Assembly (NCBI GenBank): GCA_026989265.1
Contig: JALSJP010000002.1
Coordinates: 1 to 64,000, forward strand
Reading direction: 5' to 3'
DNA length: 64,000 bases
Source: Micavibrio sp.
GTDB lineage: Bacteria; Pseudomonadota; Alphaproteobacteria; Micavibrionales; Micavibrionaceae
Shown here: positions 33,023 to 50,418 of the stretch, piece after piece
How the letters are laid out: every line of letters starts with the position of its first letter
How positions within the stretch are numbered: position 1 is the first letter of the stretch
Position numbers and translations under genes: made by a program
The notes under the pieces: generated by a model
Databases searched by the model: none
Seen by the model: only the letters and a program-made list of their open reading frames with translations
Told to the model about the DNA's origin: nothing

Positions 33023-34111
33023 ATGTTTGGTGAGACAGCTACTCAAAATGATATGGATCGTGATAATACCCAAAACATCTCAAGTAAAAGGGATGCTGAA
33101 AAAGAGATGGTTAAGGGCTTTGTAGAGCATTGCGCTAAATATCAAAAAGCAAGCTACTATAACGCATTGTTCCAGCTTGCAAATACACTCATTCCATTTT
33201 TTATAATTTGCGGAATTATGCTATATAGCTTTTCTACTGCCTATTGGGTAACCGCGCTTTTAACAATTCCTGCCGTTGGGTTGCTTGTTCGTATATTCAT
33301 TATCCAGCATGATTGCGGTCATGGATCATTTTTTCCATCTCGGAAGTGGAATAACCGCGTCGGGCGCATAATGAGCCTATTCACATGGACGCCATATGAT
33401 TTTTGGCGCAAAACTCATAACATGCATCACTCAGCATCTGGAAATCTTGATGGGCGGGGTTTTGGCGCGATTGAAACTATCACAGTTGCAGAATACGAAG
33501 CATTAGATAGCAAGATGAAGTTTTGGTATCGTATATATCGCAACCCTTATATAATGCTGCTTTTGGGTAATCCATATTTCATAATAGTGGGGCAGCGTTT
33601 CCCAATTGTTAATCCGCTGCCATTTTTTGAAACTGATAAATCTATATCCCCAAAGCAAATTTACAAGAGTGTGTTTGGTCTGGATATTGCCTTGATAGCA
33701 TTCTTTGGAGGTCTAGGGTTTGTTTTTGGTTTCGGAACTGTTTTACTAGCATATCTGCCAATTGTTCTTATAACGGCGTGGCTTGGTGGTTGGCTGTTTT
33801 ATGTGCAGCATCAATTTGAGGATTCATATTGGGAAAGACAAGATAAATGGGATTATTCGCAGGCCGCAGTCTTGGGTAGCTCATATTACGATCTTCACCC
33901 TATATTACAATGGTTCACGGGTAATATTGGCTTGCACCATATTCATCATTTAAATGCTAAAATCCCTAATTATCGCTTGCAAGAATGCATGGATGATGAG
34001 CCATCTCTTCGTAAAATAAACCGTATTACCTTGCTGGAAAGCTTTAAGCTGCGCAAGCTAAGACTTTGGGATGAAAAACAAAGCAAAATGGTCAATAATT
34101 TCCCTGCTTAA
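33023..34111 (+). CDS. Membrane fatty acid desaturase (omega-6/Delta-12-like)
   Basis: 362 residues. Three histidine boxes are visible: HDCGH (96-100), HNMHH (132-136) and HHIHH (305-309), binding the di-iron centre. Four membrane spans are expected. Box spacing and GNLDGRGFGAIETITVAEY resemble DesA/omega-6-type acyl-lipid desaturases. It would insert a double bond into membrane-lipid acyl chains; regiospecificity is not readable. An AAGAAAGAGAA site precedes the ATG. Confidence 0.9.
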   Translation: MFGETATQNDMDRDNTQNISSKRDAEKEMVKGFVEHCAKYQKASYYNALFQLANTLIPFFIICGIMLYSFSTAYWVTALLTIPAVGLLVRIFIIQHDCGHGSFFPSRKWNNRVGRIMSLFTWTPYDFWRKTHNMHHSASGNLDGRGFGAIETITVAEYEALDSKMKFWYRIYRNPYIMLLLGNPYFIIVGQRFPIVNPLPFFETDKSISPKQIYKSVFGLDIALIAFFGGLGFVFGFGTVLLAYLPIVLITAWLGGWLFYVQHQFEDSYWERQDKWDYSQAAVLGSSYYDLHPILQWFTGNIGLHHIHHLNAKIPNYRLQECMDDEPSLRKINRITLLESFKLRKLRLWDEKQSKMVNNFPA

Positions 34112-34326: not shown

Positions 34327-34342
34327 TGTTTCACGTGAAACA
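34327..34342. promoter_or_regulatory. parS centromere site (ParB binding)
   Basis: TGTTTCACGTGAAACA is a perfect 16-bp palindrome identical to the canonical chromosomal parS recognised by ParB proteins (Spo0J/ParB) in Bacillus and Caulobacter. It lies in the gap between convergent genes. Chromosomal parS sites cluster near the replication origin in most species, so the origin may not be far; parAB themselves are not in this window. Confidence 0.9.
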
Positions 34343-34375
34343 AATCAAGAACATGCGTGGTTTTATCATTTCAAA

Positions 34376-36220
34376 CTATTTATTTGCAGCAGTTTTTATT
34401 TCCTCAAGCTCAAGCCAGCGTAATTCCGCCTTATCCAATTCTTCCCTAGCCTCGGGCAGGCGTTTAGATATGCGGGTGAACTCGCCTGCATCCTTGGTAT
34501 AGAGGTCAGGATCACTCATAAGATCCTCTAATTTCGCTATTTCACCCTCCAATAACTTAATAGATTTCGGCAGTTTTTCCAGCTCATGTTTTAGGCTGAA
34601 TGTAAAGGCTACAGGCTCTTTTGGCGTATTTTTCGCTCCAGATTTTTTCTTGGTTTTAGTTGGTTTATTATCGGCAGGATCGCTTTTTTGTGATTTCTTG
34701 AAAGCTATGTAATCGCTATAGCCGCCAACAATGCCCTCAACCTTTGCATCGCCTTCAAATGCAAGGGTTTTGGTGACTATTTGATCGAGAAAATCACGGT
34801 CATGCGATACAATAAACAGCGTCCCGTCATAGCTTTTCAATATGCCTGTCAGCATATCAAGCGTATCCATATCCAAATCATTTGTCGGCTCATCCATAAT
34901 AAGCATAGAGCCTGGATTTGCTAGGATTTTTGCCAGCATCAGGCGGTTTTTCTGCCCTCCTGAGAGCGTAGAAACCGCTCTCCAAGCGTCTTCAGGGTCG
35001 AATAAATAATCCTTAAGATACCCGCAAACATGGCGTGATTTTCCGCGTACATCAAGGTAATCCGAGCCTTCAGGGCATAGATTATCCTTTAATGTTTTAT
35101 CATCACGCAGCATAGAACGGGTTTGATCAAAATAGCTAAAAGTAAGGTTTTTGGCGCGTTTCACCCTACCAGTATCAGGTTCTATATCACCAGTTAGCAT
35201 CTTTAAAAACGTGGTTTTACCAGAGCCATTTTTTCCCAAAATTCCAATGCGGTCTTTCCTTTTTATCCGCATATTAAAATGGTCTAATATCTTCTTTTCA
35301 CTGCCATTATCGGGGGATATAAAGCTTTTCCCAACATTAAAAAACTCGGCAACATTCTGCGATGATTGCTCGGTCGTCATGGGCGGAAGCTCGATTGTAG
35401 AGGTAACGCGGCGATACGCTTTTTGGTCTTTTTCCAGATCATCACGCGCTTCATAAGCAAGGGACTGGCGGCGGACATTGCGCTTAACCCGCGCTTTTAC
35501 GCCCTTATTCGCCCATTCCATTTCCTGTTCAACCTTCTTTGCGCGGTTATGAAGTGCGCGTCCTTCTTGCTCTAACATTTCGCGTGACCATTGTTCAAAG
35601 TGAGCAAATCCCTTAGGCGCGGTCTTTAATGTCCCACGATCAAGCCAAAAAACCCGATCCGTAGTATTAGCCAAAAACCGCCTATCATGCGATACAATAA
35701 CCACCGCCCCGCGATAATTATTGATATAGTTTTCCAGCCACTCAATAAGCTCTAAATCCATGTGGTTTGTCGGCTCATCAAGCAATAATATGTCAGGCTC
35801 TTCGACCAGCGCTCTAGCAAGGCAAGCCCTGCGAAGCTGCCCGCCTGATAGGTTTTCCAGCTTATCATCAACGTTAAGCAGCAGCGGAGCTATTACCATC
35901 TCAATTCGGTAGTCAATATCCCAGTCCTCTAATTCATCGCTTAAGCCCTCAAACACATAGTCACGCACGGTCTTGCCTGCGGTAATCGCGGCTTTTTGCT
36001 TCATATATCCAGTAGTAGTAGCGGGGTATAAAAACCTGCGCCCATCGTCAATTTCGCGCTCTCCCGTTATGATATTCATAAGCGTAGTTTTACCCGCGCC
36101 GTTTTTGCCCACAAGCGCGATTTTCCGCCCAGCATGGATATGAAAAGTCAGCCCCTCAAAAAACGGCTTGCCCGCTATTAAAACGCCAGCATCTTCAACC
36201 GATAATAGTAAATCACTCAT
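34376..36220 (-). CDS. ABC-F family ATP-binding protein (Uup-like)
   Basis: 614 residues with two ABC domains and no membrane segments. Walker A GKNGAGKTT (about 38-46) and GKNGSGKTT (about 330), signatures LSGGQLRRACLARAL and LSGGQKNRLMLAKIL, and Walker B ILLLDEPTNHMD and MLIMDEPTNDLD are clear. The basic interdomain linker (ARVKRNVRRQ) and a C-terminal coiled coil (about 540-614) are typical of Uup-like ABC-F proteins that bind ribosomes or DNA junctions. Confidence 0.93.
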   Translation of the reverse strand: MSDLLLSVEDAGVLIAGKPFFEGLTFHIHAGRKIALVGKNGAGKTTLMNIITGEREIDDGRRFLYPATTTGYMKQKAAITAGKTVRDYVFEGLSDELEDWDIDYRIEMVIAPLLLNVDDKLENLSGGQLRRACLARALVEEPDILLLDEPTNHMDLELIEWLENYINNYRGAVVIVSHDRRFLANTTDRVFWLDRGTLKTAPKGFAHFEQWSREMLEQEGRALHNRAKKVEQEMEWANKGVKARVKRNVRRQSLAYEARDDLEKDQKAYRRVTSTIELPPMTTEQSSQNVAEFFNVGKSFISPDNGSEKKILDHFNMRIKRKDRIGILGKNGSGKTTFLKMLTGDIEPDTGRVKRAKNLTFSYFDQTRSMLRDDKTLKDNLCPEGSDYLDVRGKSRHVCGYLKDYLFDPEDAWRAVSTLSGGQKNRLMLAKILANPGSMLIMDEPTNDLDMDTLDMLTGILKSYDGTLFIVSHDRDFLDQIVTKTLAFEGDAKVEGIVGGYSDYIAFKKSQKSDPADNKPTKTKKKSGAKNTPKEPVAFTFSLKHELEKLPKSIKLLEGEIAKLEDLMSDPDLYTKDAGEFTRISKRLPEAREELDKAELRWLELEEIKTAANK

Positions 36221-50002: not shown

Positions 50003-50401
50003 GTCGAAGGAATCGGATGACCGCTGCATATTTATATGGAGAGGAAAGTCTGGGCTTCACGGAAAGACGACGCTGAATAACGTTCAGGAAGGGTTTTTTG
50101 CCCTTACGGCTAGTGCTGCAGAAAATTAAACTACCTCTATTGCCCTCGTGGCATAAGAGGAAAAGGTGAGAAGGTGCGGTAAGAGCGCACCGCGAATTTG
50201 GCAACAAATTTGGCATGGTAAACCCCGTCGGAAGCAAGACCAAATAGGGGCTGCATTTATATATGCTTGTCATATATGAAAGATGCTTTCCGCATCGCAG
50301 CTCGGGTAGGTCGCTTGAGATATTTGGTAACAAATATCCTAGATGAATGGTCATCCCTTGATTTTATCAAGGACAGAACCCAGCTTATAGATTTCTTCGA
50401 C
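50003..50401 (+). ncRNA. rnpB: RNase P RNA, bacterial type A
   Basis: Conserved blocks in order: GAGGAAAGTCTGGGCTTCAC (50041-50060), GAAGCAAGACCAAATAGG (50231-50248) and ACAGAACCCAGCTTATAG (50373-50390), which are the universal P-RNA core sequences. The ends GTCGAAGGAA (50003-50012) and TTTCTTCGAC (50392-50401) pair as helix P1. It removes 5' leaders from pre-tRNAs with protein RnpA. Length about 399 nt is normal. Open frames read through here on both strands are shadows. A T-run follows at 50403. Confidence 0.93.
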
Positions 50402-50418
50402 ATTTTTAATTTAAGAGC

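Follow-up and report, generated by a model that had tools for sequence, protein, structure and literature searches.

Dispersed parS sites with a fixed GAAC arm resembling part of a LexA box in an alphaproteobacterial genome

The window analysed here is a 64,000-nt stretch of DNA (positions 1–64000 of contig C2) from a 1.74 Mb draft genome of 34 contigs (G000), whose gene content and RNase P RNA are those of an alphaproteobacterium. Within it, a perfect palindromic parS site, TGTTTCACGTGAAACA, lies between two convergent genes, one for a fatty acid desaturase, which ends 215 bp before the site, and one for an ABC-F type ATPase (Table 1). This position makes a role as a promoter element inapplicable to the window site. 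As originally predicted, the 16-mer is identical to the known ParB site; it is the sole parS match in the window at up to three mismatches, and from base composition, 2e-5 copies would be expected in the window and 6e-4 genome-wide. Conservation extends past the 16-mer to give TGTTTCACGTGAAACA-AATCAA-GAACAT, which ends 21 bp from the 3′ end of the ATPase gene. This longer sequence contains a LexA-box-like direct repeat that has its first half-site in common with parS and is one mismatch from GAAC-N7-GAAC. The desaturase gene is a flanking gene outside the system, and its relatives gave no information when used for synteny. Further along the window, a class A RNase P RNA (50005–50403) is found directly upstream of a co-directional run of genes that looks like a division and cell-wall cluster.

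Table 1 Positions, within the window, of the parS site, the elements that overlap it and the flanking genes.
Feature	Position	Strand	Basis
Perfect palindromic parS, TGTTTCACGTGAAACA	34327..34342	.	0 mismatches to the 16-bp consensus
Composite: parS + 6 nt + GAACAT	34327..34354	+	Geometry common to 11/11 dispersed G000 copies
LexA-box-like direct repeat AAAC-N7-GAAC (AAACAAATCAAGAAC)	34338..34352	+	Sequence; published and lexA/recA promoter consensus
Fatty acid desaturase gene	33023..34111	+	PF00487
ABC-F type ATPase gene	34376..36220	-	PF00005 x2 + PF16326

Across the genome, 13 perfect and two one-mismatch parS sites were counted. Four perfect, plain copies lie within 4.6 kb of one another (C19:44256–48833), in or beside mnmE, mnmG, rsmG and parB. 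The remaining 11, which comprise nine perfect and two one-mismatch sites and include the window copy, are dispersed over eight contigs (three on C1, two on C7 and one each on C2, C5, C10, C16, C17 and C19), where they are located inside rimM, ileS, hisD and sufD, between convergent genes or near gene starts. The ParB encoded beside rsmG and mnmG on C19 is full-length, with ParB_N, HTH_ParB and ParB_C domains (Pfam). The presence of this three-domain protein and of a perfect site in the same genome supports the original proposal that the window 16-mer is a chromosomal parS. In a search of G000 for a second ParB paralogue, only one ParB scored over the cut-off, and two weak ParB-domain hits were to phage-type ParB-methyltransferases. 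Two near-identical phage-like gene groups (L098, L099; C21, C6) encode a 403-aa protein with a ParB domain and a DNA methyltransferase. The parB gene follows rsmG at ~37 bp (L014:13960–15592, on C19) without the usual parA between them; in G003, G006 and G034, a ParA Walker motif adjoins parB. The 1.557 of 1.741 Mb of G000 that were searched contained no chromosomal ParA motif, and ParA may have been lost or may lie within the remaining 11% of the genome.

This distribution bears on a further part of the original prediction, namely that this part of the contig may be origin-proximal. Clustering near oriC is usual, not obligatory, for parS, and it is because many parS lie near oriC that the window site could be taken for an origin marker. 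Here that is very unlikely: the plain parS cluster with parB, rsmG, mnmG and mnmE is on C19, dnaA is on C31, the GC skew of C2 has one sign throughout with no switch, and dispersed copies occur on eight different contigs. The GC-skew switch and minimum of G034, a near-complete relative, fall at its plain parS cluster (1.923–1.927 Mb). Three window genes have G034 counterparts, at 0.64, 1.07 and 1.29 Mb, 630–860 kb from that cluster, distances that are weak and indicative only because gene order differs between G000 and G034. In this relative, too, parS is dispersed, with one composite copy at the terminus. The window parS belongs to the dispersed class and not to a cluster near oriC. Dispersed copies of this kind are not supported as origin markers and give no origin information, and the presence of a perfect parS is no guarantee that a contig is close to the origin.

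All 11 dispersed G000 copies carry GAAC exactly 6 nt beyond parS, on one side (TGTTTCACGTGAAACA-N6-GAACA(T/C/A)), and this arm is absent from all four of the parB-proximal plain copies. Given the observed GAAC frequency, the probability of the word occurring at offset 6 in nine of nine perfect dispersed sites is P=1.5e-22. No other tetranucleotide at offsets 0–29 reaches nine, with a neighbouring register of the same word reaching eight. A search of G000 for degenerate composites, using the 28-mer and allowing up to three mismatches, returned the same 11 sites and no further copies. The sequences flanking the copies are unrelated, and information outside the motif is near zero except at two or three bases. 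A composite site, made up of parS and a fixed GAAC arm, is well supported. As regards other features of the set, a role as promoter element of neighbouring genes was rejected for most copies. KOPS-like polarity was not supported: the motif is on the G-rich strand in nine of the 11 G000 copies, a small margin, and its orientation is mixed in G034 and G332. Only G060 gave a hint of even spacing (minimum gap 82 kb, P=0.011), and for G332 and G372 the signal in the skew samples was insufficient to place copies on the replichores.

The arm resembles parS itself, since GAACA is similar to RAACA, the parS half, from which it is displaced by 11 bp, or about one helical turn. It could on these grounds be a third, degenerate ParB half-site that creates a higher-affinity or directional site. 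We regard this as improbable, as the arm has G in 11 of 11 G000 copies whereas all 26 ParB half-sites of the 13 perfect copies have A (GAAAC), the arm does not retain the GTG portion of a half-site, and the plain parS beside parB do without an arm.

The composite was found in 18 of the 142 genomes of the order, all within one family, with same-genus carriers being G001, G002, G003, G005, G006 and G010. The composite in rimM occupies a matching position in seven species, that in ileS does so in three genera, and those at sufD, cmk/aroA and ruvB/ybgC are common to G000 and G010. In the suf and clpX neighbourhoods of G034 and G104, the composite is present and displaced by 1–2 kb. Within rimM, the motif forces the protein to carry an unusual peptide, KCS-x-x-V-[SP]-RET, in which Ser becomes Pro where GTGAAAC in the DNA becomes GTGGAAC. 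The composites inside ileS (L011:9927) and hisD (L012:9925) of G000 encode unusual peptides, MFHVKH in IleS and MFHVKQ in HisD, where the DNA site seems to shape the encoded protein.

Copy number differs between close relatives, and G060 has 11 composites while its sister G059 has four. By the pattern used, the near-complete, same-genus genome G009 contains two plain parS only and no composite, and the complete relatives G062–G069, in which LexA is present, contain no composites; in close relatives such as G009, the dispersed copies may have been lost or may have escaped detection. Such variability, and the existence of lineages with scattered parS (PMC8357415), would be compatible with these being ordinary scattered parS, the extra motif having arisen from mobile or repeated DNA. 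The unrelated flanks of the copies and the retention of the motif bases at orthologous places in coding genes leave this explanation hardly credible.

A class-wide pattern search gave matches in 15 of 386 genomes. Depending on base composition, ~1 in 130 to 270 parS would match the composite by chance, and only multi-copy genomes were taken as independent support because single hits in this search may be chance. Multi-copy sets beyond chance were present in independent families, in G332 (8), G372 (6), G404 (7) and G473 (6), with the copies of G404 and G473 forming in part 33–34-bp arrays in intergenic DNA. Short arrays of parS plus GAAC at 33–34-bp spacing were seen in intergenic chromosomal DNA of family f90 (L297:1433–1514, L293:1462–1520, L298:1523–1600). 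The f90 arrays have AAAC and GC-rich spacers, and are less LexA-like.

Taken with the arm, the parS half beside it forms RAAC-N7-GAAC. The alphaproteobacterial LexA box is GAAC-N7-GAAC (GTTCN7GTTC; Caulobacter, PMC12700426). In G000, GAAC-N7-GAAC boxes are carried by the promoters of lexA (GAACCAAGCTAGAAC) and recA (GTTCTATTTTTGTTC); LexA is encoded (C7:14272) with the same box before its own gene. The perfect repeat occurs seven times in 934 kb, four of the seven being just upstream of reading frames and outside them. Among ten composites of G002, G003 and G005, the arm-side half has G in eight, giving perfect GAAC-N7-GAAC, and the far half in none (Fisher p=7e-4), although some of the ten are orthologous and hence not fully independent. 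The same arm-side asymmetry was seen in G119–G121, from another genus, and perfect GAAC-N7-GAAC composites are also found in G059 and G060. In g41 both halves have G, and G387 is a counter-example, with two sites that have G in the far half. One Caulobacter LexA box, GTTCttgttatGTTC (PMC12700426), reads GAACATAACAAGAAC when reversed, one base from AAACATAACAAGAAC, the arm of a G010 composite. Of the 142 genomes of the order, 124 have a LexA scoring over the cut-off, among them all 18 that bear composites; LexA being nearly universal, its phyletic link with the composite is uninformative.

It is quite possible, if short of probable, that the dispersed copies are ParB-loading sites overlapped by an operator for LexA (or, less likely, for another GAAC-N7-GAAC binder), which would make ParB loading conditional. 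We infer both the gating and the identity of LexA as the second protein from sequence. The main point against LexA is the shared half-site of the G000 composites: it is AAAC, differs from the LexA consensus at one base, and should be bound less tightly by LexA. Complete relatives that have LexA, such as G009 and G062–G069, also count against this reading, as they contain no composites by the pattern used. In addition, the window composite lies between convergent gene ends, and several other copies are intragenic, which is not the promoter position of LexA operators.

Several of these observations would also suit a direct-repeat binder other than LexA, acting with ParB to aid loading, to block sliding on one side or to mark chromosome domains. 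The geometry demands a second recogniser, AAAC is a poor LexA half-site and is found in many genomes, composites lie away from promoters, and the f90 arrays, at 34-bp spacing, look architectural. This alternative is possible but rather doubtful: GAAC-N7-GAAC is the LexA box of G000 itself, and we know of no other alphaproteobacterial protein that binds it.

On the LexA reading, the window site would belong to a special, dispersed class of ParB-loading sites, in which a perfect parS and a direct-repeat operator, RAAC-N7-GAAC, have a half-site in common. Because this half-site overlaps, ParB and the second protein could hardly bind together. In undamaged cells, LexA on the shared half-site would exclude ParB; departure of the repressor, for example after DNA damage, would allow the scattered sites to load ParB and, by way of ParB, condensin and the MipZ division inhibitor. 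The plain, origin-proximal parS would be active all the time. G000 encodes ParB, LexA and MipZ, and contains an SMC-like reading frame whose N terminus is canonical. The fullest version of this proposal, in which LexA-blocked parS are SOS-gated centromere sites that DNA damage frees, with ParB, condensin loading and MipZ redistributed over the chromosome as part of the SOS response, strikes us as somewhat unlikely. If it were true, segregation and division control would be linked directly to the DNA-damage response. The composite itself provides a simple sequence rule for finding such sites. No relevant papers naming parS together with LexA or SOS boxes were found among the open-access papers searched, and this absence of a description of the composite is weak evidence of novelty.

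Compared with known systems, the composites share RAAC-N7-GAAC with the alphaproteobacterial LexA box (PMC12700426), including perfect GAAC-N7-GAAC in G002, G003, G005 and g41; they differ in that they are mostly not upstream of genes, in that one half-site belongs to parS, and in having AAAC in G000. ParB of Hyphomonas neptunium binds exactly TGTTTCACGTGAAACA in vitro (PMC6650430). With the chromosomal parS of ParABS systems, G000 has in common the identical 16-mer and a canonical ParB, but its composites are dispersed and carry a fixed GAAC arm, and only the four parB-proximal copies are ordinary. The Noc-binding sites of Bacilli are dispersed, parS-related sites of a ParB-like nucleoid-occlusion system. 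The composites are likewise dispersed and parS-related; by contrast, they keep an unaltered parS, and the search of G000 gave no Noc paralogue. Finally, the scattered parS of some lineages have been discussed as unexplained and as counterproductive, on the grounds that condensins loaded by ParB would run into one another (PMC8357415). The composites resemble these in being multiple parS away from the origin, and differ in adding a second conserved element at a fixed spacing. A conserved, overlapping operator may offer a reason why scattered parS are tolerated, namely that they are conditional sites.
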